44,470 bases of DNA from a virus, in IMG/VR virus record IMGVR_UViG_3300035698_019624, positions 1 to 44,470 of that record; one strand, written 5' to 3'. Position 1 is the stretch's first letter, and each line of letters begins with the position of its first letter. The notes beneath the pieces were generated by a model, which was not told the DNA's origin, made no database searches, and was given only the letters and a program-made list of their open reading frames with translations. The position numbers and the translations under genes are program-made. Positions 24,668-43,386 of this stretch are shown in pieces.

Positions 24668-26435
24668 AAAAACTAAGACAGAACCAACATTTGATAACCT
24701 TGAAGATGTTTTTAAAGACTTTGTTGTAACTGCAGAAAAAGCAATAGGTCAACAAAAAGATTTATATATACCTGATGTAATAGAGTTTACAGAAACTTTT
24801 TTAAATTTAGGTAATATTGGATTAACTATTTATCAACGTTTAATTCTCAAATGTTTGTATAATCTTAATTTGTCAGAAGAAGATTTGTCGATCTTAGAAT
24901 ATTGGAAAAGTACTGATAAAACTACATTTGATTTCGATATTAAAAATAAATATCAAATATTAGTTATACAAGCAGGACGACGAAGTTCCAAAACTCTTCT
25001 TGCTGGTATAATTGCTACTTATGAATTTTTTTGTTTAGTGCGTATAGGAAATCCTCAAGCATATTACAAGATTGCTAGTGGTTCTCCTATAGGCATTCTT
25101 TGTTTAGCAACTACTTCTGATCAAGCTAAAAGAACTATTTTTAGACAAGTTCAAGGTTTAGTTAAGAGTGTTCCTTACCTTCTTGATTTAGAAAGTAAAG
25201 GAGAAATATTTATTGGTAAAGAAGAAATAGCTTGTGAAAGCAAACAAGTTTATCTTTATGCTGGTAATAGCAAATCTGGTTCACAAGTAGGTGCGAACCT
25301 TAAATGTTTAGTAATGGATGAAGTAGCACGTTTCCAGTCTGCAGATGGGGATAATAATGCATTAGAGTTGTGGAGTAACTTAGGTATTGCAGGTGCACCT
25401 TTTAAAAGCCAAGCTTTAAGAGTAGCCATTTCGTCAGCTTGGGAAGATGGAGATGCTATTGAACAACTTTATAATACTGCTAAAGTTACTCCTTCAATGA
25501 TTGGATTTAATTGTTGTAGTTGGGATATTAACCCGATTATAGCGGCAAGAGATAATGAAGTAGTTATGGCAGAATATGCTGCTAACCCGATAATAGCTGC
25601 TTTAGAGTTTGAGAATATAAGACCTAAAGCAGCTATGGCTTTTCTTAATTACGATGAAGTTAGAAGAGCTTTTACTGGTAAATCAATAATAAAAGTTCAA
25701 AGAAATATTGTTTATGAACCTAATCCTTTAGTAGAATTAAATTTAGTTGAATGTGAAACAACTAAATCTTATTCAAGTGTAATTCACGTTGACCCAGCAA
25801 TTCAAAAAGATGCTTATGCTTTGGCAATGGGACATCTTAAATACGAAACTAATTCTGATAAACCTTTAGTTGTTATTGATTTTATATGTGCTTGGGAACC
25901 TGATGTTAATACTCAAGTCAAATTGTCAAATGTATACGATTTAATAAAAGAGATACATCAATATAGAAATATATTAAAAGTGTCAGCAGATCATTTTAAC
26001 AGTGCTGAAACTATGCAAAAACTTAATGCAGATGGTATTCCTGCGGAAAGTGTATTTTTCTCTAATAGAACTCAGATAACAATGTATGACACTGTTAGAA
26101 CTTTGTTACACGAAAATAGATTAATATTACCAAATGATTCTTTTTGGACTCCTTTACTACAATTAGAATTAGCAAGAGTTGAATTGAAAAATGGTGGTAC
26201 TAAAATAGACCATCCAAAAACTGGAAGTAAAGACATTGCAGATGCTGTTGCTGCTGTATGTACTATACTTTTAGGAAATCCTATTAGTATTAATAAGAAT
26301 AAGCCAGTATTAAAAGCAGCAACTGTCAGCCAAACATTTAAAGTTCAACAGATAAATAAAAAAAATAAATTTAAAGAAAAATTACATAATCATAATAATG
26401 TAATTACAAAATTTAGGAATTTAAAACCAATTTGA
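24651..26435 (+). CDS. terL: Terminase large subunit (ATPase and nuclease)
   Basis: The DNA-packaging motor that pumps DNA into the prohead and cuts it, 594 aa. The ATPase domain has Walker A GRRSSKT (109-115), Walker B LVMDE (220-224) and a coupling motif near SSAW (261-264). The nuclease domain has Asp381 (HVDPAIQKDAYA), Asp447 (SADHFN) and Asp528/Asp531 (GSKDIADAVAA). The C-terminal 50 residues are Lys/Asn-rich. The frame is closed by TAG at 24645 and has no ATG before motif III, so translation must begin at TTG 24651 or TTG 24660. It lies among tail genes, with no small terminase subunit recognised nearby. Confidence 0.96.
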   Translation: MLKLFKKTKTEPTFDNLEDVFKDFVVTAEKAIGQQKDLYIPDVIEFTETFLNLGNIGLTIYQRLILKCLYNLNLSEEDLSILEYWKSTDKTTFDFDIKNKYQILVIQAGRRSSKTLLAGIIATYEFFCLVRIGNPQAYYKIASGSPIGILCLATTSDQAKRTIFRQVQGLVKSVPYLLDLESKGEIFIGKEEIACESKQVYLYAGNSKSGSQVGANLKCLVMDEVARFQSADGDNNALELWSNLGIAGAPFKSQALRVAISSAWEDGDAIEQLYNTAKVTPSMIGFNCCSWDINPIIAARDNEVVMAEYAANPIIAALEFENIRPKAAMAFLNYDEVRRAFTGKSIIKVQRNIVYEPNPLVELNLVECETTKSYSSVIHVDPAIQKDAYALAMGHLKYETNSDKPLVVIDFICAWEPDVNTQVKLSNVYDLIKEIHQYRNILKVSADHFNSAETMQKLNADGIPAESVFFSNRTQITMYDTVRTLLHENRLILPNDSFWTPLLQLELARVELKNGGTKIDHPKTGSKDIADAVAAVCTILLGNPISINKNKPVLKAATVSQTFKVQQINKKNKFKEKLHNHNNVITKFRNLKPI

Positions 26436-27031: not shown

Positions 27032-27550
27032 GTGAATATATACAGCCCAATTTACATTAAATATATTAATCCAATAATAACGTCACAAGAAGATACTAAT
27101 GCGTTAATAAGATTAGTTATTACTCCTCCTGCTTCCGGTTCAATTTCATATTATCAGTTTTTACCAAAACCAACAACTATTGATTTAAATAGTGCTGGCG
27201 AATTAAAAATAAAACTGGCTAATACTGATAATTTTTATATTAACGGAAGATACGAAGTAAAGTTTTATTTTGTAAAACCAAATGGAAAACGAACTGATAC
27301 TCCTTTTTTAACTCAAAGATGGAAAGTTCCATCTTCATCTTTTCAAAGAACAAAAATTGTTACTCATCCTTTTAATCTTGATTCAATGGATGAACCAATA
27401 TATGAAATAATGAGTACTTCTTTAAACTCGGATTTTTATATAGAAAACAATACCTTAATATTTAATTCTCCTCCTTTAGCTAATACAACGTTTAGTATAA
27501 ACTACGTGTACGCTCTAAGTTTAGGTGACATATTAGATGAAATAGAATAA
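27032..27550 (+). CDS. Unrecognised structural protein, 172 aa
   Basis: It starts at GTG 27032; the next in-frame Met is about 115 codons downstream, so GTG is required. The protein is beta-rich with an immunoglobulin-like strand pattern (LIRLVITPP, ELKIKL, RYEVKFYFVKPNGKRTDTP) and no catalytic motif. It overlaps the giant gene by TAATG, which ties its translation to it. A tape-measure-associated or tail-tip accessory role is a guess from that coupling. Confidence 0.8.
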   Translation: MNIYSPIYIKYINPIITSQEDTNALIRLVITPPASGSISYYQFLPKPTTIDLNSAGELKIKLANTDNFYINGRYEVKFYFVKPNGKRTDTPFLTQRWKVPSSSFQRTKIVTHPFNLDSMDEPIYEIMSTSLNSDFYIENNTLIFNSPPLANTTFSINYVYALSLGDILDEIE

Positions 27551-30500
27551 TGGGAACAGTATACGATTTCAGAGAAAACGATAAAAGAACTAGAGAATTT
27601 ATCTCTGGTGCACCAAGAAATTCTTTAACTGCCACTCTTTATGAGTGGTCAAAAACGAGCACTCCAGATTTTTCAAATGCTAAAGGCATAATTGTTAATA
27701 CTGGAAACATTTCTGCTAAAGAATATCAAGCTAGAATTAATTCTCTTAATAGTAAGAAAGTAAATTTTAGAACATTTGGTACTGCTGGAGGAGATCAAAG
27801 ATTACATGCTAAAACATATGCAACTGATACAGAAGCACTTATTTCTACTGGTAATTTCTCTGATTCTGCAACAAGGTTTTCTGATACGTATGCTGCAAGA
27901 AAAGAAAGCAATAAACTTAATCAAGTTAATATTAGTTATAAAACTAATGATAAAGACTTAGTAAGTAAGATACGACAATTTCATAGCAACTTGTTTGCAG
28001 GAAAACCTACTAATTCTAGTAGTAATTTTCTTGTAGGTGCTAATACTAACTATGCAGTTAAAAGTTCTATAGAAGAAGCTCAACCAAACTCTGATATTAC
28101 TTTAGTTTCTGCTTATACTAATGATATTTCAATTTTTGGAGCTTTGGCAGGTGCTGTTAAGAAAGGTTCAAATGTAACTTTAATAACAACACTAAATTCT
28201 AATATTAAAACATCGCCTTCTAATCCAGTATACGAAGATATAAGAGGAAATTTATTAGAAAGATTACAAGCATCAGGAGTTAATGTTTTAGCTCAAAGAG
28301 CTGATGATCCTTTATTAATCCATGCTAAAGCTTTAAATATTAAAAATTCTTCTGGTGAAGTATCTTACCTTGGTTCTTCAAACATAACTAATCCTAGTAT
28401 GAGTGAAGATTCATATGATGTTTTAGTTAAATTACTAGATACCGACGCTAGTGAAGCTGGTAAAATTATTCGTTCAATAAAAAATATTGATTTAATTAAA
28501 CCTGATTTAAGAAGATCTAAAGTTAAAAAACATTCACAAAAAAAAGCAAAACCATTTTCTGGAATAGAATTACGAACACTGTCAGCAGGAACAGATTCAT
28601 TATATAGTTCAAATATAAATCATGAGTGGCATAATGCAGATGGAAATCTAGCAATATCTAAGCACGAAGATGCAATGCCTTATTTTCCTACTGCATTGCC
28701 AGATAAGTTTTTACAACAAATGGCAAGAAGTGGTGGAAGATCTACCATGTATCAAGACTTATACAAAGCAAGAACTGGTGAAGAAGCTGGTTCTGGTATA
28801 AGAGCATTAGACGAACAAATGTCTAATCTTGGTTTAGGTTTGGGCTTAAATCAAGCTATAGGTGTAGATGTATATAAAACTGGTCGTGGTGTATTAGGTT
28901 CCGTTTTATCAGGAGTTGGAAGGTCTTTAGATTTTCTATTTGGTGATCCTTATTATGAAGAATCAGAAGCACTTAGAAAAGGAAAAAAAGAAGGTTCTGT
29001 TAAAAAATTTCTTGGTATAGCATCAACTAATAAAAAAGATAATGAAGGTTCTTTTGAATCTTTGATTAATCAAACATATGATATGGCTGTTGGAGTGTCT
29101 CAAGCAATAGCTGTATATGCGGCTGTTAATATGCCATTACAACATGCTTTAGCAAAACTAGAACAAGAAACAGTAAATTCATTATTAGCTTCTCCAGATA
29201 CAAATAGAAAATGGCATGGTGCAAGAACTAAATTTGAAGGAATGCAAAGACGTGTTATATTTGGTAATCGTCTTGGAGAAAAAATAAGTGATCTTGTAAA
29301 CACTAATAAAGATGTTACCAGTAATCTTTTAGATTCTTTGGTAAATCAAAAAGGAAAGTATGCTAGTGCAGCAGTAGAAACAGTTGCTGACAATTATTTA
29401 CATGGAATACAAATGTTATCTTTTGAAGATAATGTTGGTGTATTATCTATGTCTAATAAAATCAGAGAATTTGATCAGTTTAGATTTGCTAATATTCTAA
29501 AACCAATATTTCAAACAATAAACCCCTATGAAGTGGGTTCTCAAGATGATACTTTAGTTCAAATGAGTCTTAATAAGATTCAAGAAATTGCAGGGCACAA
29601 ATTAAGTTTGTCTTCTAAAGTATCTGAGTCTTCTTTATTAGGAAGACAAACTTATGTGAAAAACATAGGTGAAAGTCGTGTTGGTGAAATAGCTAAAAGC
29701 ATGGACCGTTTGGGGGCATTACTTCCTTTAAACATAGCTTATTGGTCTCCAGCTATTCGCAATACTTTAGGTTTACCAAAATTTGATCCAAGTAAAAATA
29801 TGACTTGGAGGGATATTTTCAGTATTGAAGAAGTAACAAAATATGTTCCTAAGTTTTACTCTGCTATTAGTAACACTTTAATTAATCCTTTAGCAATTGT
29901 TGACGGAGTAAAGTCAATTGGAAATAGCAAAGGAATAAAAACAAACTTAAAAGAATTTGTTAACAAAGCTTTTCCAATTATTAAAACTGTTCCCAAAGCT
30001 TACAAATTATGGTCACAACAAAGACAAGTTAATAAACAGTTAAAATCATTAACTGATTTGGCTCCTTCTTTAAAGTATTCTGTTAATTTTGATGGATTAA
30101 ATAATCTTTCAGATGTTTATGATACTGCTGAACAATCTTATAAAACATTAAGCAGTCAATTAAATTCATTTTCTAGTAATAAAGGTATAAAATTATTTCA
30201 AGAAAATCAATTAAATTTAACTCAGAAAACAACGGGTTATTTATCTGGAAGAAATCTTAATATTGATGGATTGATAAATCATCCATTATTAGATAAAACT
30301 CTACCAAAATATGCTGCAAAAAGAATAAAAAGAGCTGGTAGTGTAGAACAATTAAAAGCAAGCAAATTTAAAAGTCTTTTAGGGACTGTTGGTTTAGTAT
30401 TATTAACAGATTTAGCAACAGATAATTTTTTATTACAATCTGGTTCAGATTTAATTACTCAACTAAAAGCTAAAAAAGAATTAGAAACTAAAGATGGAAC

Positions 30501-33500
30501 AGTTGCACAGTTTCAATTTGATGGTAAAGCTCCTGGTGCATTTGCTTTAAGTGTAGGGTTAGCTGCTGGAATTAGTACTGGATTTTTAATACCGAAAGTA
30601 GTTGATTCTAAACTAAATTTTGGAATGAATTTGAATTCAGAAGAATTAGACAGCGGTTTTATGGCTGCTAAATCAACTATAGAAAAAGTTGGTACTTCTG
30701 CTCAGGTTGGTAATCCTGCTAATTTTGTTGGAAAATTAACTAAAGCAAGAGCTGATTATAGTGAATTAATACAAGGATTTGGTAGACATAAAACAATTAA
30801 ATTTAATAAAAATTTAGCAATTACTGCAGGGTTAACTTCTGCATTATTTACATCATTGGCATTTAAAGGTGCTGCTGGTATCGCTAACGCTTTATTTAAT
30901 AGAAATAAAGGAGTTAATTTAGATTCTGTTGGTGCTTTGATGTCAGCTACCACAGAAAAATTATTAGTTGATTCTCAAGCAACTGCAAAAACTAATCAAG
31001 ATTGGTCTGATGTTGCTCTTGGAAAATTAATTGCTGAAAAGAACTTACTTAAAAAACAAGATGGAAATAATAGTGTTTATTCAACCGCTGCTCAAATAAC
31101 TACACCGTTTTTTCAAGTAGCAGGTTTGATGAAAATGGACGAACAAGCTAATAAAGCTGTGTTTTCTATTGGATTTCAACTTGCTCCTGTATTGGGTTTA
31201 GGATTTTCACCTATACTTCCTTTTGGTTATAAAATAGACCCAAAAAGAATTGATAAAAATAAAACTGATCAATCTAATTTTGCTGATAAATTTGGTTTAC
31301 CTGGACAAATTATTTCAGGTGTATTTAATATTGGTGGAAATATTACTTATGAAAAAGACAGCCCGATAATTAATAATATAGAATTTATTGGTTTAGCTGC
31401 TCTTGCAAGCGCTTACAATAGACCTGTTACTAGAGTTGGTAGAGCTTTAATAGATAAGCTACCTCGTGGCGTACAAGCTGATTTGTACTTACTAGGTAAG
31501 CAAACTAAATCTATTAGAAAATACACTAGTGGAGCTATGAACTTATCTAGAAGTATGGCAGAAGGTATAACTGTATTGCCTTTTGTAGCTGCTCATGGAA
31601 CTGCACAAGCAGTAACAAAAGTGTTTGGAAAGATGGCTTCTAATAATATTTTTAAAAAAGTGTTAACTGGATTTATTGCTTATAGCGTAGCAAGTGTAAT
31701 GTCTGGTGTTCCTGAAAATGAAGAAACTGATGTAAAATCCCAAATTCAAAAGATGATTCCTGCCGGAATTGGTATTGCAGCTATAGTTAGTGTAAACAAA
31801 GTATTATCATTATCACCTATAAATTCTAGTCGTTTTATTAGAACAGCATTACCTTTTTATCTTGCAGCTTCATTAGGAAGATTAATGTCTGACAATGATT
31901 CAGGTTATACGCAAAAAAAATTCTCTCCTTATGAACAATTTAATGCATTTATTGGTAGTGGTTTAATATTTGGTGGATTATTACATTCTTCAGGAGCATT
32001 TGCTCGTACTGACGATATTACTGATACTTTATTATTTAAATATTCGTCTAAAAAGCGAAATAAAGTATTAAGAGAAGTCATGTCTGAATTAGAACCTGAA
32101 AAAATTATATCTGTAACAAAACATCTTGGCAAATTAATGCCAACAAAAGGTTTTAAACGAATAAAAGCCGATGACAATCTTTTGAAATCTTTGTCATTAG
32201 AAACTCTTGTTCAAAGAACTAGTTTATACGAAAGTAAAGAAGTAACAGAAGGAGTTTTAAGACATGGGAAAATTAAAGCGTTTACTGCAAGATTGAGATC
32301 TGCTGGTAAAGCATACGCTACTCTTACTTTGGGATCTTCTTTAATTGCGAATTTACTTAACGATTCTCAACTAGAAAGTTTATACAAAGTTCCTATTATT
32401 GGTCAAGTAGTTAGATTATTTAGTGGAGTCGATCCAAGTAATAATATTTCTGGTAAAAAACGAACAAATCGATTACAAAGTTTTGTAAGTAAAGTTTTAA
32501 AAACAGCAACATTAGGTATATTAGATTTTGATAAAGCAACTGGTGCTTATCAAGATAAGTCAGATCCTTTCTTAGCTGTATTTGGAGGTCTTGGTGCATC
32601 GTTTAGAGAAGGCGGAAGAACAACTGAATATTTTCAAGTTGCTTCTCCTTTTTCTGACTTATCTTTTAGTTCTTACAAAATTGGTAAAATGGCTGCTTCA
32701 GGTTCTATTACTAATATGGAAGTATTAGCTAAGGGAACTCCTGCAGGATTAAATGCCAATCAAGCTCTTCGTTTAAGAATTGCAAGATTAAGAGGCGCAA
32801 CTCCTAGAAAAGATAAAATGCAAATTGATAAAGTTTTATCAGAATATGCGTTAGAATCTTTAACTTCTTCTGGTATAAAAAGATCTATTAATGTTCAAAA
32901 CTTTTTAGTTAAAAACTTAGCTCAACAAAGACCTAGTGAAATAGGTTTAGATATGTATAGAGAAGGTTTAGTAACTGGTTCTGTTAGTTCTAAAGTAATG
33001 AAAGGATCTAGATTAAAAAGAATATTTGATCCTCTTTCTACACTAAAAGGTTCTTTTACAACTAATTCTAAACGCCCTGAAACTAAAGATGCAACTATAA
33101 GTACTATTGATGACTGGGCAGAAACTGGTTTGTGGAAAGAGAAAATGGTTAATTCTGAAGTACTTAGAGGATTAACTAACCCGTTAACTATTGCTAATAA
33201 ATTGAATTTTCCAGCAGCTTATATTCCAGTAGCTGCATTAGTTATTGGTTCTACTGCATTAGCATTAATGGAAAGTTTTTCATCTTTGGCTAATATAGGA
33301 GCAAAACAAAGTTTAATTGATTTAGCTAATGATTCAAAAATCTTTAATTCCAGACCAGTAACTAATAAAAAGAAATTTGTATTTACCAGTTTTATTGAAG
33401 CAGCTACTAATAAAATGTCTGTTATACAAATTGACTTAACAAAATTAGACAACGTTGGTTATGTATTTGGTTTAGATGCTGATAATGCTTTAAGTGAACT

Positions 33501-36500
33501 AGTAGAATCTAATTCGCCACGTAAATTAGCTAGTACAGTTTCTAATGCTTATTCAAAACATCTTGGCTCTGTTAATAGATTTTTTAAAGATAATTTTTCT
33601 GCTGAATTAAATAAAAATTTAGTTGAAAGTTTTAATCCAAATGTATTTAAAAACAACGTTAGAGAACAACTAACTACAAATCTATCTAAATCTTTTAATA
33701 GAACTTCTATTAAAACAGCTAGAGGAAGAGTATCGTATTATGATTCTGTATTTGGTGGAAACTCTAAAATCAATCCAAGTTTAGATAAATATGTTACTTA
33801 CTTAATGGATGGTTCAGAAGAATTCCAAGGTATTACTTCTGCTATTGATGAGGTACTTGAATATGCTAAAGAATCTTATAAAGGAAATGCGCCAGTTGGT
33901 TCAGAAATGTTTGTTAAAAGAAGAGTTGAATTACTAGATGTTTTTGAGAAAACAACTGGTTTTAAATCTTTTGTTGAAACAATTGAACGACCGTTAACTG
34001 GCGAGTACAATCTCAGTACTAATGAAATAGAAAATATTAAATCTTTTAAATCTGGAACAGAAATAAATGAAGCTTCTTATAAGTCTATAAAAGAAGCAAG
34101 GAACAGTATGAAATTAGTTAATGAAGCTGATTATGCTGTTAATTCTAATAAATCAAAAATATATAGATTTGGTTTAGAAAGTAATGTATCTTGGAGTCAA
34201 AAAGGTATTGGTTCTGTATTAGATGCTGGTAAAGGTGCTTCTATTTTATTAGGTCAGTATGTAGAGAAAATTGTACCTGCTTATGAAATAATTGAAGGAG
34301 CAAGTTTAGCATTAGACAAATCTAAACCAGATTATTTAAGACAGTCTGGTGGTGAAAGTGCTATTCGTTCTTTTGTTACTACTGCAATTTCTGTTGGTAT
34401 TTCTGCTGGTTTAACATTTCTTGGTTTACCTGCTTTTGCATCTCTTGCCATTGGCGTTACGTCTATGATGGGATTCCAACTTCTTACTGGAATGAATAAA
34501 ACCTTAAGAGATTCTCAAGATAATTTTGTTAAAGGTTTTTCTAACCTTGTATTCAAACCAGTAAAAACTATTGCTAAAGTATTTAAACCACTAGGTTTAG
34601 ATAATGCTTTTGAAACTGTTGCAGGAACTATTTTAGCGCCGTTTGGTGGTGCTATATCTTTAATGGCAAAAGCTATTAATAGTTTTACAAGCAGTGTTAC
34701 AGGACCTTTGTTGGCAGAAATGATACAAGGAATGGATAAAGCTTCTCCTTGGCAACAAATGCTAGGACAAATTTTTCTTCCACAAACTGCTTACACAGCA
34801 GAAGCTAACAGTAGGTTTTCAAAAAGAGCAACTCTAGTTAATACAATTAAACAAAGTACTAAGATTGGTGGTATTCCTGAGTTATATTCAGAAATAAACG
34901 GCGGTGCTTACTATGACTCTTCAAGACATTTTATAGATGATGCAACAAAGAATAAAGTATATGGACAATCTTATGCTGGTGGTGGAAGAATATTATCTTC
35001 TTTCTTAAGTACTGGTATACGAATGTCTAATATTATGAGAATGTCTTTAGAAAGAAAAAGATTTCTATCAGATCATTTTGTTGTAGGCTCTGCAATTACT
35101 AGGATGAATACACCTCATGAACCAAATATTTCTGGAATGATGGGCATGTCAGGTTTACTTCTTGCATTTGCTAATAAAAAACGTATATTTAAAGCTTTAG
35201 GAAAAGTTGGTACTGCAGGTATTAGTAGATTTGATAGTGTTATGAAATCTTCTATGGGTATTTCTCCTAAAGCGTTTATAGACAAAGCTATAAACTTAAA
35301 AACATTAGCTCAGGAAGTATTAGTTACTAAAAAGCCAAAATTCATTCCAGACTCTTTTAAGGGCGGACATCTTGGACATAAAGTTGCTTATAAATTTAAC
35401 AACTTCTTAGAAGGAATTAAGTTTAATTTAAAAGCTTCTGTTGAAAGTTTATTCCAGAAAAGTAAAGTATTATCTTATTCTGCTAATACAGTTGAAGTAG
35501 CAACTGAAGCTAGTAAGAATTTTGAAAGATTATCAGGTCAATTATTTGGTTCTGCCAAAGGAATGGCTCAAGTAAATGCTCCAAAAGGATTTTCAACTTA
35601 TGCAAGCTTAGAACAATCTGGTATGTATAACATTAAGAAAAATGCAATTAGATTATCTTCAACTACTGAATATGGTTTGGGTTCTTCTTTTGTTAATAAA
35701 GTATTTAAAAGTAAGTCTGAATTTATTGCATTGCATGAACTTGGTCATTCTTACGATTCACTTACTGGAGTTAGATTAGGTTTAGGTAATATTAATTCTA
35801 TTGGTAATCAAGGTCGTTTAAACAATAAACAAATACGAGAAGTTGTTAGAGGAATGGCAAGAGATTCTGTCATTCAATATGCTTCTGGTAATAAACTTAG
35901 TAAAAAATTAATTAGTAAGATTTATAGAGATGAAGTAAGTGCTTCGACAAGAGCTTTAGTTCAAATGAACAGTAATAATTCTGAAGATTTGGGTTTATTA
36001 CTTAACAAATTAGCTCAAGAAGGAAAAGTTTCTAACATTAAAGAATTTAAACAGTTAGTAAAAAATACATCTTCAGAAAATGTAAAAGATTCAGGTATAA
36101 GATTTCTTCAAAAGAAACTTAACATAACTGTTGGTCCTGAATTGAAAGGATTAATGAAAAGTGCTGGTACTGTAAAAGAAAAGTTATTTGCATCTGTTTC
36201 TTACAAAAAATTCTTAGGAAATAGTAATGTAAAAAATACTTTTTTAAATAGAAGTAAATCACACATAGGAGATTTTTCTTCTAGTTTATTAAAAGAACAG
36301 TTTAATGACTTACTGTCAAAGCCTACTAAAAATCAACACATATTTGTAACTGCTATAGATAAAGCTTTTAGAGCTTCAGTAGTTGCAGGTTCTGGTACGG
36401 TCGTTGGTAAAGATTTAATAAAAGGTTCTTTAATTGAAGGAACCAAAGATGTATATTCAATGATTAATAAACCATTGATAAATACAACGAGAAATCTTAA

Positions 36501-39500
36501 TGCACGATTAGGTCGTCTTGGTTTAAATTTATTTGATGTGTTAGATGTTGGGTTTACTGGTCTTGACTTAATGTTAGGTCAAGAATCAGTTAATCAAGCA
36601 CGAAACGTTAATAAAGATCTTTCTGTTTTATATAGACAAAGTGGTGCTCGTGGTTTAGTTTCTAATAGAACTTCAATAATGAAGTCTTTAGAAGATAGTA
36701 AAAGCAATCAACTTGGAGCTTTAACTGGAAACTTGTTTGGTGTTTCTGGTTCTTTGCTTTCTCCTAATCCTATATACGGATTAGTTGGAGGAGCAGCAGC
36801 AACTGCTTTTGGTTTAATAGGATTTGGTGGATTAAATAAATATTTAGCTAATAGAGATTATGAAAGAGCTTTACAAGGTCATGGTACTTATGACCCAATT
36901 CAATCTCAGGGATTATATTTAAGATCTCACAGAGGTTTTGAACAAGCAAATGCTGTAGGTAATGCTTTGTTTGAAGCACCAAGAAGTTTCATGGGTAAAC
37001 AATTAACTAAAGTTGCAAAATTTGGTAAAAAGCATGTTTTACCAATACTATCTAAAGTTGGTAAAGTTTTTGACTCTTTATTAAATGTTGGCTTAACTGG
37101 AGTAACGGGCGGCGTTATGGCTGCCATAGGAACTTCAATTATATCTACAATAGGATCTGCTACACTTCTTGCTGTGAAGTCAGGTAAGGCTATTTCTAGA
37201 TCAATTAAAAATATTTCAAAATTATCTAATTTTAAATTACCTGATTTTGGTAATTTTAAGTTGCCCAAATTTAATATGAGCTTGCTTAGTAAATTATCTA
37301 ATATTAAAAATATTAAAATTCCTAATATTTTAAAGAATTTTAAATTACCAAGTATTAATTTTAGTAATTTTAAAATTCCAGGTATTGACTTTAGTAAATT
37401 AAAAATTCCTAATATTAATTTTGGTAATATTAAATTAAAATTACCTAAAATTAATTTAGATTTTTTAAAGAATATTAAGATGCCAAGTCTTGATAAGTTG
37501 AGAAGTTTTAAATTACCAGACTTTAATATATTTAAAAATATTAAATTACCAGGTTTTGATAAGTTGAAAAACTTTAAATTACCTAAAATGTCTGGTGGCA
37601 AGTTAGGACAATTTATTAAAAATGCTCCTGGAAAACTATTTAGTATTTATAAAGATTTCTTTTCAACTAATATATCTTTTAACAAACTTAAGAATGTTAA
37701 CTTTAAAGGTTTGGTTGATAAAGACAATCTTAAATATCAATATTGGCTTTGGTCTAATACTACAAAATCTGGGAGAGGAGTTAAAAGTTCGTTAGATAAA
37801 GCTGGTAGAGTATTGTCTTCTGCTAAATTTAAACTTGAAGATGCTGCTGCTTCTTTGATGAATCCTAATACTTATAAAAGTATTAAAGATGCAGCAATAA
37901 ATTCTATGTTTACTATTAATAGTAAAGCTGGGAAAGCTTTTAATTCTTTAAAATATTCTTTATCTAGAGGAGTTTCTAAAGTTCGTAATTTTAATAGAAG
38001 TATGAATTTTGGCTTTGTTAATAAAGCTACGTCTAGATTAAAATCAGGTGTTAATAAAGTATCTTCTTCTTTAAAAAACGCCTATACAGTAGCAAGCACA
38101 GTATTAAGAAATTCTACTAATATTGATAATTACAGATATCAATATTGGCTATGGGCTAATACTTCAAAATCAAGTAAACTTTTAACAAAAGCTGGTTCAA
38201 CTATTAATGATTTATTTACTAATGGAATGGATTTAGTAGGTAAAAGTATTAATAGAATTAAACCTGGTGGAGTATTTAAAACAGTTAAATCTATTGGTAC
38301 TAAACTTGCCACTTCCTTAAAAGATTTATCAAGTAGATTACCTAAATTTAACCTTAGTTCTGCTGTTGATAAAGCTAGTATGCTTGGTAAAAAACTACTA
38401 ACTGGTGCTACTAAAGTAGTGAGTTCTTCTTTTGGATCTTTAGCTTCACGTTCTTTATCTTTTGCTAGTAAATTATACAAACCAATTCTTAACTTTGGTA
38501 TAAGAGCAGAAACTGCTGCTATTAAGAAAATTAATAGATTTGTTCCTAGCATTGGCAGAACATTAGCAATTAAAGGATTTAAAGAAACACTAATCGATGC
38601 TATTAGTCCATTAATTGATATAACAACTTTTGGAAGTGGTGTTTTAGAAATATCTCAATTAAATAAAAAATCGACTTTAGCTGATGTTGAACAAGCGTAT
38701 GCTAAAGCTTCAGGAGCTAAAGGTTCTTTAGTTGGTAGTATTCTTGGTTTTACAGCAGGAGGAGGCTTTGGTGACTTTATTGGTTCCTTAGCTGGAAATT
38801 TAATTGGTTCTAGCTTTAATAAAGCTAAGTTACGATTTGATACAAAAGACTTTGGCGCAGCTACTATATTAGAAGATCAAGTAAAGCCTCTTATTAGAGA
38901 TTCTGCACTAGCTTATCAAGTAGGTAAAAATGTATCAACCAAGTTAGTTAAACCTTTAACTGGTATGTATTTATCAAGTTTGAGACAAAAAGCTGGCTTG
39001 CAAACTTTAGCTAAATCTGCACAAGGTTCACGTGCACTATTAAATAAAGGCATTAATCCAAACCAATTTAAATTAGCTAGACATGAAAAATTAATATTAA
39101 ATATTAACAACTCTGGTAAGTCTGCTTTTGCTAAACAAGTCGCTAAAGCTTCTACTAGATTAAAATCAGTTGGTGGTACTGCAGGTCAGCGTGTTATTTC
39201 TAAAACTCTTCGAGCTGGAGGAAAAATTGGTAAAACTGCAGTAAAAGCATTTTCTTTGTTAAGTCCAGTTATTGATACTTATTTAATTGGAAGTGGTTAT
39301 AACAAATTAAGAAATGCAGAAACTCAAGCTGAATTTGTTTCTGGCAATAGAAGAATGATGGGTTCTTCCGGTTCTTTAGCTGGTGCTGTAATAGGGGGTT
39401 CTTTACTTGGACCTATTGGAGCTATTGCAGGAAGTTTAATTGGTGATTTTGCTGGTAATATGTACGGAGAATATATTGGTAAAGAAGCGCATAGAAAAAG

Positions 39501-42500
39501 ATTGTCAGGAAAAGATTTAGCTAATAATCAATTAGGTGGAGGTATAATTGGTGGTGTTTTAGTTGGTGCTGGTGCTGTTGGTTTAGCAGCTTTAGGTGTT
39601 ATTAGTGCTCCTTTGATATTAGCTGGTGTTGCTATAGGTGCATTAGCAGGTGCTGCTATTGGTGGTTATAATTATGTTAAAAATAATAATAAAGAAAAAT
39701 TAACAAAATCTATATATGAAAAACCTAAACAAAAAGAATTTAAAGATTCAGTAAGAATTGAATCAACTCAACAAACTCCTGTTAAACCTTTATCTCAAAA
39801 TAATAGTAAAACATCTAAAGGATTTTTTACACCGTTATTAGAGTATGTTTTTGGTTCTCCTGCTCAAGCTAGTGAGTTGAATACAATAAAAAATATTCAA
39901 CAAAAAACAACAGATAGAAAAGCTTCATATAAAGAATTAATTCCAGTTAAATCTTCTTATAAGAAAGTATTTAAATCTGAATCTAAAAAGCAAAAAAATG
40001 CTGCTGATTCTATTGGAAATTTCTTAACTAAAATTACTAATTCTGCTGTTAAATTTTTCCTTAAAGCAAAAGATGCTTTAATGAATTTAGTTCAAGCAGG
40101 GTCAGATGCTGCTAGTAATGTTATTCAAGGTGGAGTAAATTTAGTAACTGGAGTTGCTGATACAGCCTTAGATATTGCTTCTGGCGGTTCAGTTGGTGCT
40201 GGTCGTATTCCTATTTTAAGTGGTGAATATAGTTCTTTAAATAAACTTATTCCACAACTTGCTAGTAATAAATATTTTAAGACTGATACTGAAGATGGTA
40301 GATCTAGAATGGTTATAGCTGTCAGTATTGGTGCTACAGAAGCTTTTGGAGCAGGTCAGACTGGTACTGATTTCTTTACTAGAAGAGGTGGTACTGGCAA
40401 CAATATGAAAGGACTTGCTCAATACAATTTAGCTTACCATTCTTCTTTTATTGATACTCCAGAAAAATACAAAGACTACCTAGGACAACATTTGTCTGGA
40501 GAACGAGTATTACCAAATAGTCAAAGTGCTGGTAATCCTGGCAAAAGATTGAGTGATGCAATTAAATCCGGAGAAGTAAAATCTGGTCCTGATTTAGAAA
40601 GGTTTTTAAGAAAAATTCAACTAGGTGGTTCGAATTGGCAAGGTTTAGATGATGGTTGGAAGCGTAATCCTGGTCTATCTAATCAATTATTTAATTATTT
40701 AAAATCTCCTCCTGCTCCTTCAATTGTTAGAAATGATAAAGTTTCTAACACTGCTTCTGGTTCATCTGTTGCATCTGGTGTTTCAAAAGGTCCATTGTTT
40801 GGATATGCTAGTCCTTCAGCTACACAGAATTGGTCTCAAGTATTAAATGGTTCTGTTACTCCTGGACAAAGTTTAAAAGCTTCAAGAGGTGGTGGTTCTA
40901 GACTGCATAATGGAATTGACTTTGATGGTACAGAAGGTTTGTCTTCCAACGATTTAGTTAATGTTATGTTTCCAGGTTCGGTTGTAACAACTGCCGCTTG
41001 GGGAGCTGGAGGCTATGCAGACCAAGGTGGTGGAAGAAGTAATGCAATACAAATAAAATCTGCTTTACCTGGTGGAGGTTCTTTTTATATGGATTATGGA
41101 CACATGAAAGAATCTACTTTTAAAGTTAAAACAGGATCACAAGTTGCTGCAGGACAAAATTTGGCAAGATTATCTGTTAATGATGAAGCTAGTCAAGGCG
41201 GACATTTAGATTTGAAATTGCAAGTTCCTACTAGTTTTGCTAACAAACAAGGTTTTAGCCAAGGTTCAAGAGGAAAAGTTGAAGGATATACATATGTTGA
41301 TGTAAAACAATTTATGTCTTGGTATCAAAAACAAGTTGATGCCAAACCTGTAGTTTCAACTAGTGTACCTAATGCTTTAGTTAAAACACAAGGAAACATT
41401 TCTGCTAATGTTGTTGCAAACAAAGTTGGTAGTAAAAAAACAGCTACTGTTGCTCAATCAGGAAATGTTGCTCCTGCTTCTGGAACTGTTAAAACTACAA
41501 AAGCACCTACTGTTTCTAACGCAAGAGTTATTACAGCAACTCCTTATGATGTTATTAGCTTTAGTGGACAAACTAATAATTCTGGAGTTCGTGGTAATTT
41601 TGTTGTTAAGAAATACGAAGATGTAAGTCCTCACTGGAATGGTAGTGGTGGTTATACAACTTACAAACGAGATTCTAGATTTAAAACTGGGTGGAAATCA
41701 ATGGTTGGTGATCTCCAAGTATCTGACCTTGCTTTGTACAGAAATGATAACGAAAATGTAGAAGTAAGAGCCGCAGCTAGTGGTACTGTTGTTTCTGCTG
41801 GTGGTTCTTATGGGCTTGTTGGTATTAAAACATCAAGTGGAGAAGTTGTACGAATGCTTCACAATACTGGAATAACAGTTGCTGTTGGTCAAAAAGTACA
41901 ATTTGGTCAAATTGTAGGACGACAAGGAGATGCTGGTACTGGTAATGGTGCATATCACGTTCACTTAGAAGCTTCTGACGCTACTACTAAACGTTATGTT
42001 GAAGCACTTGTATCTGGAACGTATAAAGACACTGATATCGGGGCTGGGTCAATTAATCCAGATGGAACTTCTATAGTTAGTGGCGGTAGTTCAGGTACTA
42101 AAGCAATGGAAGAAAATACTAATAGTTCTTTAGGTTCAAGAATTGTTCGAAGTATTACTGGTTTTCTTAAAGGCTTTATGGTATTTAATGTATTTAAAGC
42201 AGTCGCTGCTTTAGGTAATTTTGCTGCTAATAAAGTTATGTTAACTAACGGAGCTTCTGGTGCTAACAGAGTAAAAAAACGTGGTGAGCGACCAATGAGA
42301 GAATTACTTAATGCTTGGGGTGCATATGCTCCTGCAAGACAAGAATCGTCTCTTAATAATGGTTCTCCTAGTATTGTTAATAGAACGTCTCAAACAGCTC
42401 AACAAACTGTTCCATTAACAACACAAGTTCCTAACATGCCTGGTGCGTCAGACGATCAACGATGGGCTATACGAACAATACAAGCAGCTCAAAGAATTGG

Positions 42501-43386
42501 TGTTAGTCCAAAAGATTTAATGGCTGTTATGTATTTTGAATCTGATTGGATTCCTAATAACAGTAACAATGTTAATCCTAACAATAGAGATGCTTCAGGT
42601 GCTGCTGGGCATATTGGCTTAATTCAATTTGGTCCTGATTATAGAAGAACTAAAGGAATAAGCAAAGCTCAGATTGGTAAAATGGATAGAGTTCAACAAA
42701 TGGATTTAGTTGAAGATTATCTATTAAATTACGTTGCAAACGGAAGACGCGATGTTTATCAAAAAGGTGGAGTTAAAGCTTTATACGGTGCAATTCTAGC
42801 AGGAGATGCTAGTGGAAGATTTAACGATTCAAAAGACGAATACGGCACATCTGTAAATAATGCTGTAGGACGGATGAACAGTAAAGTTGGTAATAAAGCA
42901 GATATATTGTTAAATTCAGTTGGATACAATAGTAAAACTGGAACTTTCAATGTCCCAAAAGCTCCTAAACCACCTGCTGCTGAACAAGTTAAAAGAGTTG
43001 TAAAATCTGATGGTAAGCAAGCACAAGCAGAAATAAATAAAATAGTTGCTTTTACTCTAACTGACACACCTCAAGCTATTAATGTTTTAAATCAATTGAC
43101 TACATCTTTTGAAACAGCTATGGTTTCTGTTAATACTAAGAAACAATTAACTGGTGCTATAAAAGTTATAATTCCAGATGTTGAACAAATTGCTTTAGCT
43201 GACACTGCTGTCAACGGAGTTATGAATACTGAGGTTAATACTAATGTTATTGATAATAATGGAAGAATTAAAATTAATTTTAATAAAGAAGCAGGATATA
43301 TTGCTTCTAACTGGAAACAAATAACTGGAGCTGACAGTATAAGTGAATATCAGAACATGGAAACAGGTCTGACAGAAAATGCTTAA
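27550..43386 (+). CDS. Giant 5278-aa tape-measure-like multi-enzyme virion protein
   Basis: A single uninterrupted frame of about 580 kDa. In order: PLD-like domain (20-300); a long helical, Lys/Ser-rich body with hydrophobic segments near 996-1016, 1090-1112, 1371-1388, 1402-1416, 1467-1483, 1891-1912 and 2276-2308; HELGH zinc motif (2729-2733); KLP repeats (3227-3347); glycine-zipper modules (about 2990-4044); a lysozyme-like segment (4225-4385); two M23-like domains (4440-4565, 4725-4824); an SLT-like domain (4970-5107). Hydrophobic segments and C-terminal wall hydrolases are typical of tape measure proteins that are ejected into the host. No other tape-measure candidate lies between tube and baseplate. 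Tape-measure identity is inferred. A separate giant ejected or adsorption protein is the alternative. Confidence 0.75.
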   Translation: MGTVYDFRENDKRTREFISGAPRNSLTATLYEWSKTSTPDFSNAKGIIVNTGNISAKEYQARINSLNSKKVNFRTFGTAGGDQRLHAKTYATDTEALISTGNFSDSATRFSDTYAARKESNKLNQVNISYKTNDKDLVSKIRQFHSNLFAGKPTNSSSNFLVGANTNYAVKSSIEEAQPNSDITLVSAYTNDISIFGALAGAVKKGSNVTLITTLNSNIKTSPSNPVYEDIRGNLLERLQASGVNVLAQRADDPLLIHAKALNIKNSSGEVSYLGSSNITNPSMSEDSYDVLVKLLDTDASEAGKIIRSIKNIDLIKPDLRRSKVKKHSQKKAKPFSGIELRTLSAGTDSLYSSNINHEWHNADGNLAISKHEDAMPYFPTALPDKFLQQMARSGGRSTMYQDLYKARTGEEAGSGIRALDEQMSNLGLGLGLNQAIGVDVYKTGRGVLGSVLSGVGRSLDFLFGDPYYEESEALRKGKKEGSVKKFLGIASTNKKDNEGSFESLINQTYDMAVGVSQAIAVYAAVNMPLQHALAKLEQETVNSLLASPDTNRKWHGARTKFEGMQRRVIFGNRLGEKISDLVNTNKDVTSNLLDSLVNQKGKYASAAVETVADNYLHGIQMLSFEDNVGVLSMSNKIREFDQFRFANILKPIFQTINPYEVGSQDDTLVQMSLNKIQEIAGHKLSLSSKVSESSLLGRQTYVKNIGESRVGEIAKSMDRLGALLPLNIAYWSPAIRNTLGLPKFDPSKNMTWRDIFSIEEVTKYVPKFYSAISNTLINPLAIVDGVKSIGNSKGIKTNLKEFVNKAFPIIKTVPKAYKLWSQQRQVNKQLKSLTDLAPSLKYSVNFDGLNNLSDVYDTAEQSYKTLSSQLNSFSSNKGIKLFQENQLNLTQKTTGYLSGRNLNIDGLINHPLLDKTLPKYAAKRIKRAGSVEQLKASKFKSLLGTVGLVLLTDLATDNFLLQSGSDLITQLKAKKELETKDGTVAQFQFDGKAPGAFALSVGLAAGISTGFLIPKVVDSKLNFGMNLNSEELDSGFMAAKSTIEKVGTSAQVGNPANFVGKLTKARADYSELIQGFGRHKTIKFNKNLAITAGLTSALFTSLAFKGAAGIANALFNRNKGVNLDSVGALMSATTEKLLVDSQATAKTNQDWSDVALGKLIAEKNLLKKQDGNNSVYSTAAQITTPFFQVAGLMKMDEQANKAVFSIGFQLAPVLGLGFSPILPFGYKIDPKRIDKNKTDQSNFADKFGLPGQIISGVFNIGGNITYEKDSPIINNIEFIGLAALASAYNRPVTRVGRALIDKLPRGVQADLYLLGKQTKSIRKYTSGAMNLSRSMAEGITVLPFVAAHGTAQAVTKVFGKMASNNIFKKVLTGFIAYSVASVMSGVPENEETDVKSQIQKMIPAGIGIAAIVSVNKVLSLSPINSSRFIRTALPFYLAASLGRLMSDNDSGYTQKKFSPYEQFNAFIGSGLIFGGLLHSSGAFARTDDITDTLLFKYSSKKRNKVLREVMSELEPEKIISVTKHLGKLMPTKGFKRIKADDNLLKSLSLETLVQRTSLYESKEVTEGVLRHGKIKAFTARLRSAGKAYATLTLGSSLIANLLNDSQLESLYKVPIIGQVVRLFSGVDPSNNISGKKRTNRLQSFVSKVLKTATLGILDFDKATGAYQDKSDPFLAVFGGLGASFREGGRTTEYFQVASPFSDLSFSSYKIGKMAASGSITNMEVLAKGTPAGLNANQALRLRIARLRGATPRKDKMQIDKVLSEYALESLTSSGIKRSINVQNFLVKNLAQQRPSEIGLDMYREGLVTGSVSSKVMKGSRLKRIFDPLSTLKGSFTTNSKRPETKDATISTIDDWAETGLWKEKMVNSEVLRGLTNPLTIANKLNFPAAYIPVAALVIGSTALALMESFSSLANIGAKQSLIDLANDSKIFNSRPVTNKKKFVFTSFIEAATNKMSVIQIDLTKLDNVGYVFGLDADNALSELVESNSPRKLASTVSNAYSKHLGSVNRFFKDNFSAELNKNLVESFNPNVFKNNVREQLTTNLSKSFNRTSIKTARGRVSYYDSVFGGNSKINPSLDKYVTYLMDGSEEFQGITSAIDEVLEYAKESYKGNAPVGSEMFVKRRVELLDVFEKTTGFKSFVETIERPLTGEYNLSTNEIENIKSFKSGTEINEASYKSIKEARNSMKLVNEADYAVNSNKSKIYRFGLESNVSWSQKGIGSVLDAGKGASILLGQYVEKIVPAYEIIEGASLALDKSKPDYLRQSGGESAIRSFVTTAISVGISAGLTFLGLPAFASLAIGVTSMMGFQLLTGMNKTLRDSQDNFVKGFSNLVFKPVKTIAKVFKPLGLDNAFETVAGTILAPFGGAISLMAKAINSFTSSVTGPLLAEMIQGMDKASPWQQMLGQIFLPQTAYTAEANSRFSKRATLVNTIKQSTKIGGIPELYSEINGGAYYDSSRHFIDDATKNKVYGQSYAGGGRILSSFLSTGIRMSNIMRMSLERKRFLSDHFVVGSAITRMNTPHEPNISGMMGMSGLLLAFANKKRIFKALGKVGTAGISRFDSVMKSSMGISPKAFIDKAINLKTLAQEVLVTKKPKFIPDSFKGGHLGHKVAYKFNNFLEGIKFNLKASVESLFQKSKVLSYSANTVEVATEASKNFERLSGQLFGSAKGMAQVNAPKGFSTYASLEQSGMYNIKKNAIRLSSTTEYGLGSSFVNKVFKSKSEFIALHELGHSYDSLTGVRLGLGNINSIGNQGRLNNKQIREVVRGMARDSVIQYASGNKLSKKLISKIYRDEVSASTRALVQMNSNNSEDLGLLLNKLAQEGKVSNIKEFKQLVKNTSSENVKDSGIRFLQKKLNITVGPELKGLMKSAGTVKEKLFASVSYKKFLGNSNVKNTFLNRSKSHIGDFSSSLLKEQFNDLLSKPTKNQHIFVTAIDKAFRASVVAGSGTVVGKDLIKGSLIEGTKDVYSMINKPLINTTRNLNARLGRLGLNLFDVLDVGFTGLDLMLGQESVNQARNVNKDLSVLYRQSGARGLVSNRTSIMKSLEDSKSNQLGALTGNLFGVSGSLLSPNPIYGLVGGAAATAFGLIGFGGLNKYLANRDYERALQGHGTYDPIQSQGLYLRSHRGFEQANAVGNALFEAPRSFMGKQLTKVAKFGKKHVLPILSKVGKVFDSLLNVGLTGVTGGVMAAIGTSIISTIGSATLLAVKSGKAISRSIKNISKLSNFKLPDFGNFKLPKFNMSLLSKLSNIKNIKIPNILKNFKLPSINFSNFKIPGIDFSKLKIPNINFGNIKLKLPKINLDFLKNIKMPSLDKLRSFKLPDFNIFKNIKLPGFDKLKNFKLPKMSGGKLGQFIKNAPGKLFSIYKDFFSTNISFNKLKNVNFKGLVDKDNLKYQYWLWSNTTKSGRGVKSSLDKAGRVLSSAKFKLEDAAASLMNPNTYKSIKDAAINSMFTINSKAGKAFNSLKYSLSRGVSKVRNFNRSMNFGFVNKATSRLKSGVNKVSSSLKNAYTVASTVLRNSTNIDNYRYQYWLWANTSKSSKLLTKAGSTINDLFTNGMDLVGKSINRIKPGGVFKTVKSIGTKLATSLKDLSSRLPKFNLSSAVDKASMLGKKLLTGATKVVSSSFGSLASRSLSFASKLYKPILNFGIRAETAAIKKINRFVPSIGRTLAIKGFKETLIDAISPLIDITTFGSGVLEISQLNKKSTLADVEQAYAKASGAKGSLVGSILGFTAGGGFGDFIGSLAGNLIGSSFNKAKLRFDTKDFGAATILEDQVKPLIRDSALAYQVGKNVSTKLVKPLTGMYLSSLRQKAGLQTLAKSAQGSRALLNKGINPNQFKLARHEKLILNINNSGKSAFAKQVAKASTRLKSVGGTAGQRVISKTLRAGGKIGKTAVKAFSLLSPVIDTYLIGSGYNKLRNAETQAEFVSGNRRMMGSSGSLAGAVIGGSLLGPIGAIAGSLIGDFAGNMYGEYIGKEAHRKRLSGKDLANNQLGGGIIGGVLVGAGAVGLAALGVISAPLILAGVAIGALAGAAIGGYNYVKNNNKEKLTKSIYEKPKQKEFKDSVRIESTQQTPVKPLSQNNSKTSKGFFTPLLEYVFGSPAQASELNTIKNIQQKTTDRKASYKELIPVKSSYKKVFKSESKKQKNAADSIGNFLTKITNSAVKFFLKAKDALMNLVQAGSDAASNVIQGGVNLVTGVADTALDIASGGSVGAGRIPILSGEYSSLNKLIPQLASNKYFKTDTEDGRSRMVIAVSIGATEAFGAGQTGTDFFTRRGGTGNNMKGLAQYNLAYHSSFIDTPEKYKDYLGQHLSGERVLPNSQSAGNPGKRLSDAIKSGEVKSGPDLERFLRKIQLGGSNWQGLDDGWKRNPGLSNQLFNYLKSPPAPSIVRNDKVSNTASGSSVASGVSKGPLFGYASPSATQNWSQVLNGSVTPGQSLKASRGGGSRLHNGIDFDGTEGLSSNDLVNVMFPGSVVTTAAWGAGGYADQGGGRSNAIQIKSALPGGGSFYMDYGHMKESTFKVKTGSQVAAGQNLARLSVNDEASQGGHLDLKLQVPTSFANKQGFSQGSRGKVEGYTYVDVKQFMSWYQKQVDAKPVVSTSVPNALVKTQGNISANVVANKVGSKKTATVAQSGNVAPASGTVKTTKAPTVSNARVITATPYDVISFSGQTNNSGVRGNFVVKKYEDVSPHWNGSGGYTTYKRDSRFKTGWKSMVGDLQVSDLALYRNDNENVEVRAAASGTVVSAGGSYGLVGIKTSSGEVVRMLHNTGITVAVGQKVQFGQIVGRQGDAGTGNGAYHVHLEASDATTKRYVEALVSGTYKDTDIGAGSINPDGTSIVSGGSSGTKAMEENTNSSLGSRIVRSITGFLKGFMVFNVFKAVAALGNFAANKVMLTNGASGANRVKKRGERPMRELLNAWGAYAPARQESSLNNGSPSIVNRTSQTAQQTVPLTTQVPNMPGASDDQRWAIRTIQAAQRIGVSPKDLMAVMYFESDWIPNNSNNVNPNNRDASGAAGHIGLIQFGPDYRRTKGISKAQIGKMDRVQQMDLVEDYLLNYVANGRRDVYQKGGVKALYGAILAGDASGRFNDSKDEYGTSVNNAVGRMNSKVGNKADILLNSVGYNSKTGTFNVPKAPKPPAAEQVKRVVKSDGKQAQAEINKIVAFTLTDTPQAINVLNQLTTSFETAMVSVNTKKQLTGAIKVIIPDVEQIALADTAVNGVMNTEVNTNVIDNNGRIKINFNKEAGYIASNWKQITGADSISEYQNMETGLTENA
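27607..28470 (+). other. PLD (HKD)-like domain at the N-terminus of the giant protein
   Basis: Two half-motifs are present. The first is His86-x-Lys88-x4-Asp93 with Asn102 in a TGN turn. The second is His258-x-Lys260 followed by GSSN at 275-278, with Lys265 where the Asp usually is. Spacing of about 170 residues is normal for the two HKD lobes of a phospholipase D-superfamily enzyme. The catalytic His and Lys are intact in both. The family includes lipases and nucleases, and the substrate cannot be told from sequence. Confidence 0.8.
35698..35980 (+). other. HELGH zinc-metallopeptidase-like region inside the giant protein
   Basis: His2729-Glu-Leu-Gly-His2733 follows a short strand (EFIAL) and is followed by SYDSLTG, the classical HExxH helix. 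Sixty-two residues later, YRDEVSASTRA places Glu2795 in a helix, a plausible third zinc ligand of the gluzincin type. It lies mid-protein rather than in the C-terminal hydrolase block. Confidence 0.65.
37228..37590 (+). repeat. KLP repeat tract (eleven copies) in the giant protein
   Basis: Residues 3227-3347 contain eleven copies of K-(L/I/M)-P-x-(F/I/L), mostly preceded by NF or NI (for example NFKLPDF, NFKIPGIDF, KLKIPNINF). Spacing is about 8-16 residues and the tract has almost no acidic excess. The DNA repeats words such as TTTAAATTACC. The strict K-hydrophobic-P register suggests a regular extended or solenoid structure. Confidence 0.85.
37729..38173 (+). repeat. Duplicated YQYWLW segment in the giant protein
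   Basis: The segment (L/Y)(K/R)YQYWLW(S/A)NT(T/S)KS occurs at residues 3394-3408 and again at about 3528-3542, 134 residues apart, each followed by a basic helical stretch. This indicates an internal duplication of a roughly 130-residue unit. Function is unknown. Confidence 0.75.
40222..40704 (+). other. Lysozyme-like segment in the giant protein
   Basis: Residues 4225-4385. A helix carrying GATEAFG (Glu4264) is followed by a Gly/Asn-rich loop (GGTGNNMKGLAQYN) and a helical C-terminal part. This resembles goose-type lysozyme or transglycosylase folds where a Glu ends a helix ahead of a 'G-l-x-Q-y' element. It begins after an AxA stretch (AQAS, 4105-4108). The call is tentative, based on layout next to the M23 and SLT domains. 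Confidence 0.4.
40867..41244 (+). other. M23 peptidase-like domain 1 (giant protein)
   Basis: Residues about 4440-4565. His4453-N-G-I-Asp4457 is the M23 HxGxD motif, His4518 lies in YGHMKE, and the closing motif reads GGHLDLKL with His4552. The usual last motif is HxH; here the second His is Asp4554. The fold looks complete, with TGSQVAAGQNLARL matching the M23 'V-x-x-Gq-x-i-g' turn. Confidence 0.72.
41722..42021 (+). other. M23 peptidase-like domain 2 (giant protein)
   Basis: Residues about 4725-4824. It has the M23 barrel pattern (VEVRAAASGTVVSAGG, VRMLHN, VAVGQKVQFGQIVGRQGDAG) and an intact terminal HVHLE (His4803, His4805). No HxGxD motif precedes it. The equivalent region has GDLQVSD without His. 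Confidence 0.75.
42457..42870 (+). other. SLT/lytic transglycosylase-like domain (giant protein)
   Basis: Residues about 4970-5107. A helix ending MAVMYFESDW supplies the ES motif with catalytic Glu4997. It is followed by SGAAGHIGLIQF, whose GLIQF lies at 5023-5027, as in Slt-type transglycosylases. The domain would cleave the glycan strands of peptidoglycan during entry. Confidence 0.85.

Follow-up and report, generated by a model that had tools for sequence, protein, structure and literature searches.

A cysteine-free giant protein encoded after the terminase of a Ma-LMM01-related phage is a candidate ejected tape measure with an apparently exchangeable N-terminal nuclease slot

The 44,470-nucleotide stretch of viral DNA analysed here (the window; IMG/VR record IMGVR_UViG_3300035698_019624) encodes a cysteine-free protein of 5278 residues in a single ATG-to-stop frame (27550..43386; window features lie on the + strand unless marked otherwise). 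We consider it probable that the virions of this contractile-tailed cyanophage relative contain the giant and eject it into the cell, most likely in the role of tape measure within the tail tube, and that its N-terminus is a cargo slot holding a PLD domain that is most likely a nuclease. The frame, the domains, the homology to other giants, the absence of cysteine and the exchange of modules were observed directly in this analysis and are described below.

Judged by its sequence, the window covers part of the genome of a contractile-tailed phage whose relatives include Microcystis phage Ma-LMM01 and Microcoleus phage My-WqHQDG, and among these relatives are viruses of bloom-forming cyanobacteria. 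The window encodes a contractile tail sheath (2571..5369), a tube-like protein orthologous to Ma-LMM01 gp092 (5426..6214, E = 5.6e-46) that is probably the tail tube by position, a baseplate wedge protein and a terminase large subunit (TerL, 24651..26435) whose 33% identity to the Ma-LMM01 protein places the phage in that lineage. TerL and the sheath are 31-34% identical to those of Ma-LMM01-type Microcystis phages and My-WqHQDG, and the gene order sheath, gp092, gp093, baseplate, gp111, TerL, small ORF, giant is conserved. The window also has a dNMP-kinase-like gene between TerL and the giant (26413-26982, - strand), and its small ORF of 172 residues (27032..27550), in the position of Ma-LMM01 gp119, has no PHROG match and a stop codon that overlaps the start of the giant. 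TerL found no relatives as a single query and 23 loci as a three-row alignment. At G003:C1:2254-6582 (L034, L057, L058), TerL is one 1446-residue frame with a large insertion near residue 104 that is likely an intein. A search of host genomes gave one match to the tube protein, in an Elainella saxicola assembly where the giant was not found; this relative of the tube protein points to cyanobacterial hosts.

An unannotated giant follows TerL in every relative with enough downstream sequence. The lengths are 2898 residues for Ma-LMM01 gp120, 2766-2902 for IMG/VR contigs, 3209 for L033, 4151 for My-WqHQDG WOL31340 and 4390 for L032. Residues 81-1807 of the window giant (27790..32970) form a conserved core that is homologous to the giants after TerL in Ma-LMM01, My-WqHQDG and the IMG/VR relatives. 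Alignment of the core to a profile of six relatives' giants with hhalign gave one collinear match of 1634 columns (E = 1.6e-17, probability 98.9), and blastp matches the same region in pieces. The C-terminal two thirds, residues 1808-5278 (32971..43383), include the hydrolases and are lineage-specific, as no homology to the giants of the relatives was detected; motif scans of viral contigs found no direct relatives of the window giant. The unannotated gp120 of Ma-LMM01 and its Fukuivirus orthologs (2898 residues) share the locus after TerL, the homologous core and the lack of cysteine with the window giant, but gp120 is about half as long, has lost the second HxK motif and contains no detected wall hydrolase, the M23 domain of Ma-LMM01 being in a separate gene, gp095. 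My-WqHQDG WOL31340 shares the locus, a PLDc_2 domain with both HxK motifs and the collinear core; unlike in the window giant, its PLD domain occupies residues about 950-1190 and is preceded by a hydrophobic stretch at the N-terminus, and no C-terminal hydrolases were detected.

The N-terminal PLD-like domain covers residues about 40-335 (27667..28554). Profile search matched PLDc_2 to residues 172-300 (E = 1.6e-13), and the match passes the Pfam cut-off. The first motif reads H86-A-K88 followed by T100-G101-N102 and the second reads H258-A-K260 followed by S276-x-N278, giving the two HxK motifs, each with a following G/S/T-N element, that characterise the PLD superfamily. The histidine, lysine and asparagine of both motifs are invariant in an alignment of the window, My-WqHQDG and L032 giants, and shuffled copies of the window giant never gave two such HxK motifs within 260 residues. 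An AlphaFold model of the domain from two sequences had a pLDDT of 35, too poor for a fold search. The PLD superfamily includes phospholipases as well as nucleases.

A sister giant has a different domain in this place. The L033 giant (G004) is 71% identical to the My-WqHQDG giant over its residues 257-3208 (~2950 residues), and the two proteins match again over the first 25 residues of L033. Residues 27-1214 of the My-WqHQDG protein, which contain hydrophobic segments and the PLD domain, are replaced in L033 by about 230 residues with an SNase domain (PF00565, E = 1.3e-13, L033:699-1500). On inspection of the sequence, DADT, RLEGVDAPE and DKFGR in L033 look similar to known SNase active-site segments. 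The exchange is local, because the DNA on both of its sides is about 71-78% identical. In the Ma-LMM01 group the first HSK is kept and the second motif has decayed to HYN; Ma-LMM01 has a hydrophobic insertion after motif 1 that L025 lacks. For the N-terminus of the Ma-LMM01 protein, hhalign did not demonstrate homology to PLD, and motif, position and spacing suggest a PLD remnant in this group. The N-terminal region of the giants thus looks like an exchangeable nuclease slot, holding PLD in the window giant, My-WqHQDG and L032, a putative PLD remnant in the Ma-LMM01 group and SNase in G004. The exchange of PLD for SNase is the best available hint that the window PLD domain acts on nucleic acid. 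The window domain is probably a nuclease because an SNase domain sits there in the sister giant, which favours the nuclease side of the "lipase/nuclease" N-terminus proposed in the initial annotation.

Three wall-hydrolase-like domains were located near the C-terminus. M23 domain 1 (40903..41223) scores 32.1 bits against PF01551, for which the cut-off is 28.7; its HxxxD is present as HNGID and its terminal HxH reads HLD. M23 domain 2 (41617..42021) scores 42.6 bits at 41752-41979, lacks the first histidine of HxxxD and keeps HVH. Each domain therefore departs once from the canonical zinc-ligand set of intact HxxxD and HxH, and we assign an M23-like fold to both without claiming canonical catalysis. 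Domain 2 aligns along its length (residues 4690-4824) to the peptidase of the phage A-1(L) hub (8kea, E = 2e-21). The peptidase domain of the A-1(L) hub lyses Anabaena cells in vitro, and mutation of its conserved residues abolishes activity or expression (PMC10966104). The SLT or lytic-transglycosylase-like domain (42442..42870) contains FESD at residue 4996 and GLIQFG at residue 5023. It matches the solved lytic transglycosylase 9udh (E = 4.5e-7) and Leptolyngbya phage endopeptidases (E = 2e-6), and the glutamate of FESD corresponds to the catalytic residue; the PF01464 match (E = 0.0049) is under the Pfam cut-off. Several relatives carry M23 as a separate gene in the baseplate cluster, and in the available sequence of the window phage M23 is found in the giant only.

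Seven TM-like hydrophobic segments are present in the window giant, compared to 8-17 in the relatives' giants. A glycine-zipper segment lies beside TM-like segments at residues 3941-3979 (39370..39486; PF13488, E = 4.3e-5) and at 23.8 bits is just under the Pfam cut-off of 25. Ten repeats of the F/I/L-K-(L/I/M)-P type occupy residues 3228-3348 (37231..37593). Just after them, the segment YQYWLW[SA]NT occurs twice, 134 residues apart (residues 3396 and 3530; window positions 37735 and 38137). A HELGH motif at residue 2729 (35734..35748) marks a possible zincin. The chance of this motif in a shuffled copy of the giant is about 1%, its region has no profile, PDB or phage match and no counterpart found in the relatives' giants, and an AlphaFold model of the region, with a pLDDT of 39, was likewise not good enough to search for similar folds. 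The initial annotation of the window had named six enzyme modules in the single 15.8-kb frame, and four are supported. The continuous frame and the hydrophobic segments were confirmed, the PLD-like module proved to be a two-motif PLD domain, both M23-like modules exceed the Pfam cut-off and the SLT-like module stands on its match to 9udh and falls short in Pfam. The internal HExxH zinc peptidase comes down to the HELGH motif, and the lysozyme-like stretch at residues about 4233-4390 (40246..40719) gave no profile or homolog match.

None of the 5278 residues of the window giant is a cysteine, and about 34 would be expected from the other genes of the window (55 cysteines in 8625 residues). Cysteine is also absent from the giants of My-WqHQDG, L032, L033, Ma-LMM01 and L006 and from thirteen further Fukuivirus-type giants, some of them partial; the L025 giant has one. 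The residue is thus nearly missing from about 25,000 residues of this family. Ejected proteins were analysed as controls. Lambda gpH, T7 gp15 and gp16, N4 gp50, gp51 and gp52, P22 gp7, gp16 and gp20 and two tape measures, from A-1(L) and P74-26 (5006 residues), have no cysteine, and T7 gp14 is the only ejected protein checked that has one. The other virion proteins checked in N4, P22, A-1(L) and P74-26 carry 1-8 cysteines with the exception of one P74-26 protein. The whole control set is small and hand-picked, and cysteine is generally scarce in virion proteins. The window sheath has 2 cysteines in 932 residues, and Ma-LMM01 also has cysteine-free proteins of 577 and 652 residues. The absence of cysteine points to an ejected virion protein and is taken as evidence, not proof.

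Tail length narrows the choice of tape measure in Ma-LMM01. The A-1(L) tape measure spans 104.5 nm with 689 residues, or about 0.152 nm/residue (PMC10966104). The tail of the close relative MaMV-DH01, whose giant has 2899 residues, measures 230-260 nm (PMC9927357), and at this spacing a ruler of at least 1500 residues is needed. The only Ma-LMM01 proteins of that length are gp064 (24 cysteines, DADGD), gp080 (one cysteine in the 3463 residues read) and gp120 (no cysteine). Of these, only gp120 has many TM-like segments, nine compared to one in gp080. If gp080 is not the ruler, it follows that gp120 is the tape measure. Two shorter proteins were rejected as candidates: gp108 (1359 residues, ~206 nm) contains DUF4815 and seven cysteines, lacks TM-like segments and matches nothing in the window, and gp098 (1177 residues) has three cysteines and no TM-like segments. 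Fully extended, the 2898 residues of gp120 would reach about 440 nm versus the 230-260 nm tail of MaMV-DH01, so much of gp120 cannot be ruler, and the assignment fits only if about half of it is. The gene sits after TerL and not after the tube, an unusual place for a tape measure. The tape-measure profile phrog_167 matches the window giant (E = 8.8e-11) mainly over the repeat and low-complexity region, and the conserved core matches no tape-measure profile. The tape-measure-like entry machine suggested by the initial annotation is supported indirectly, by homologs in contractile-tailed phages, the lack of cysteine, the hydrophobic segments, the C-terminal wall hydrolases and the exclusion of most other candidates in Ma-LMM01.

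The lineage encodes a second set of giants, comprising Ma-LMM01 gp080 (3562 residues), My-WqHQDG WOL31285 (at least 2622) and an ORF of the window phage's sister contig (L059:3717-7724, at least 1336). Synteny and one short stretch of conserved sequence connect them. The L059 contig reaches about 7.5 kb further upstream than the window; its ORF is in the gp080 position upstream of the head genes, is open at the contig end and has no cysteine and two PLD-type HxK motifs with 189 residues between them (chance 0.0002). The gp080-type PLD domain is under the Pfam cut-off in Ma-LMM01 (E = 1.9e-6) and is present as the motif only in the window phage. The sequence NLGDFDGD is common to gp080 (L030, residue 2537) and WOL31285 (L031, residue 1509). 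The motif has a chance of about 0.11 per shuffled protein but is conserved in both giants, and the P74-26 tape measure carries this RNA-polymerase-type motif as VDFDGDT. Pfam and PDB gave no match for it and PHROG no function, and the two giants that carry it are candidates for an ejected virion RNA polymerase. Ma-LMM01 gp064 (1673 residues, L071:43811-48832, - strand, 24 cysteines) contains the motif NEGDADGDQCGG, which suggests a second, non-ejected RNA polymerase. As a tentative extension, the lineage may deliver two giants that lack cysteine, one a tape measure with the nuclease slot (PLD or SNase) and the other a protein with a PLD-like N-terminus and, in two relatives, DFDGD of the RNA-polymerase type. 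The two giants would then form a modular set of effectors that the tail delivers and that act as infection begins.

Storage of the giant in the capsid is a rather unlikely alternative to the tape measure. The giant would then be an ejected protein like N4 vRNAP or T7 gp16, and a different protein, for example the gp080-type giant, would be the ruler. Capsid-stored ejected proteins are cysteine-free too, the gene follows the terminase rather than the tube, the tails known from the group are too short for the giant, and the P23-45 tape measure is fused to a DFDGD RNA polymerase (PMC10770324), a motif that gp080 has within NLGDFDGD. The near-lack of TM-like segments in gp080 versus 7-17 in gp120 and its relatives argues against this assignment, and the wall hydrolases suit a tape measure whose C-terminus lies at the tail tip. 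The near-lack of cysteine throughout the family fits ejected proteins and is unexpected for a cytosolic polyprotein, which makes it very unlikely that the giant is a late non-virion product from which an internal HExxH peptidase cuts separate enzymes, some for lysis. Several unrelated enzymes do share the chain, a HELGH motif is present and zincins are thought to process polyvalent phage proteins (PMC5512222), but the HELGH region has neither profile support nor a counterpart in the relatives' giants.

That the PLD domain is a phospholipase opening the membrane at entry is improbable, given that the 71%-identical sister giant does without the PLD module and has the SNase nuclease in its place and that the second HxK is gone in the Ma-LMM01 group, where the activity must be dispensable for entry. 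Both activities occur in the superfamily, hydrophobic segments are on the same chain and the substrate of this domain is putative on either reading. The fusion of separate genes by a frameshift or misassembly, which the initial annotation had named as refuting its reading, is highly improbable. The giant is present in only one metagenomic assembly, and the two independent IMG/VR contigs that are 99.85-99.99% identical to the window, up to position 24378, both end before it. A codon score was trained on the other genes of the window and the giant was cut into 300-codon blocks for comparison of the three frames. The true frame scored above zero and both shifted frames below zero in 17 of 17 blocks, third-position GC stays even along the frame, and neither a frameshift nor a join showed in the coding signal. 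The near-identity of the flanking 24 kb across independent assemblies also argues against an artefact, as does the one giant frame that each relative with sufficient downstream sequence has at this locus.

With the giant as an ejected tape measure, we infer its place and orientation in the virion, its ejection and the activity and substrate of its enzymes as follows. The C-termini of tape measures sit at the baseplate in A-1(L) (PMC10966104) and 80alpha (PMC11661146), and 80alpha N-termini contact the neck (PMC11661146). The C-terminus of the giant is placed at the baseplate by analogy with these solved tape measures. The M23-like and SLT-like domains at the tail tip would reach the wall first and open it, and the hydrophobic and glycine-zipper segments would next help to conduct DNA through the inner membrane. 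The N-terminus, beside the neck and the DNA, would enter last and bring the PLD phosphodiesterase into the cytoplasm, where this most likely nuclease would probably target host nucleic acid.

These results provide a candidate identity for the largest unannotated proteins of the Microcystis-phage relatives, and would add exchangeable nucleases to the one RNA polymerase for which fusion to a tape measure was described in 2024. Cargo carried into the cell by a tape measure becomes testable with the isolated phages Ma-LMM01 and MaMV-DH01, and the lack of cysteine offers an inexpensive way to test phage protein sequences for ejection. No paper linking a tape measure protein with phospholipase D was found in the open-access literature.

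Several known systems share parts of this architecture. The baseplate hub gp15 of A-1(L) (8kea) has the experimentally lytic peptidase domain that aligns to M23 domain 2, in a hub protein rather than a candidate ejected giant. Polyvalent proteins are large injected-type chains of unrelated enzymes (Iyer 2017, PMC5512222); the window giant shares the enzyme mix, with putative delivery. That survey does not mention PLD, phospholipase or M23 and describes polyvalent proteins as scarce in cyanobacteria (PMC5512222). Sle1 and Tme, tape-measure-related effectors of bacterial contractile nanomachines, combine an N-terminal coiled coil with a C-terminal functional domain (PMC13277306) and resemble the window giant in having exchangeable domains on a tape-measure-like backbone. 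The closest precedent is the tape measure of P23-45 fused to an RNA polymerase. The 5002-residue gp96 has an N-terminal RNA polymerase, transmembrane segments and a metallopeptidase and is found at full size in virions, and the fusion is missing from some P23-45 relatives (PMC10770324). The P74-26 tape measure P74p95 (5006 residues) is annotated 'contains metalopeptidase domain'. These two proteins soften the initial view of the window giant as exceptional. They share with it the giant chain, the N-terminal enzyme cargo and the transmembrane segments, and the P74-26 protein is also cysteine-free; unlike the window giant, they carry RNA polymerase instead of PLD, belong to Thermus siphoviruses and have a demonstrated presence in virions (PMC10770324). 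By analogy, the window giant would work in outline as P23-45 gp96 does, with another cargo and more wall hydrolases.
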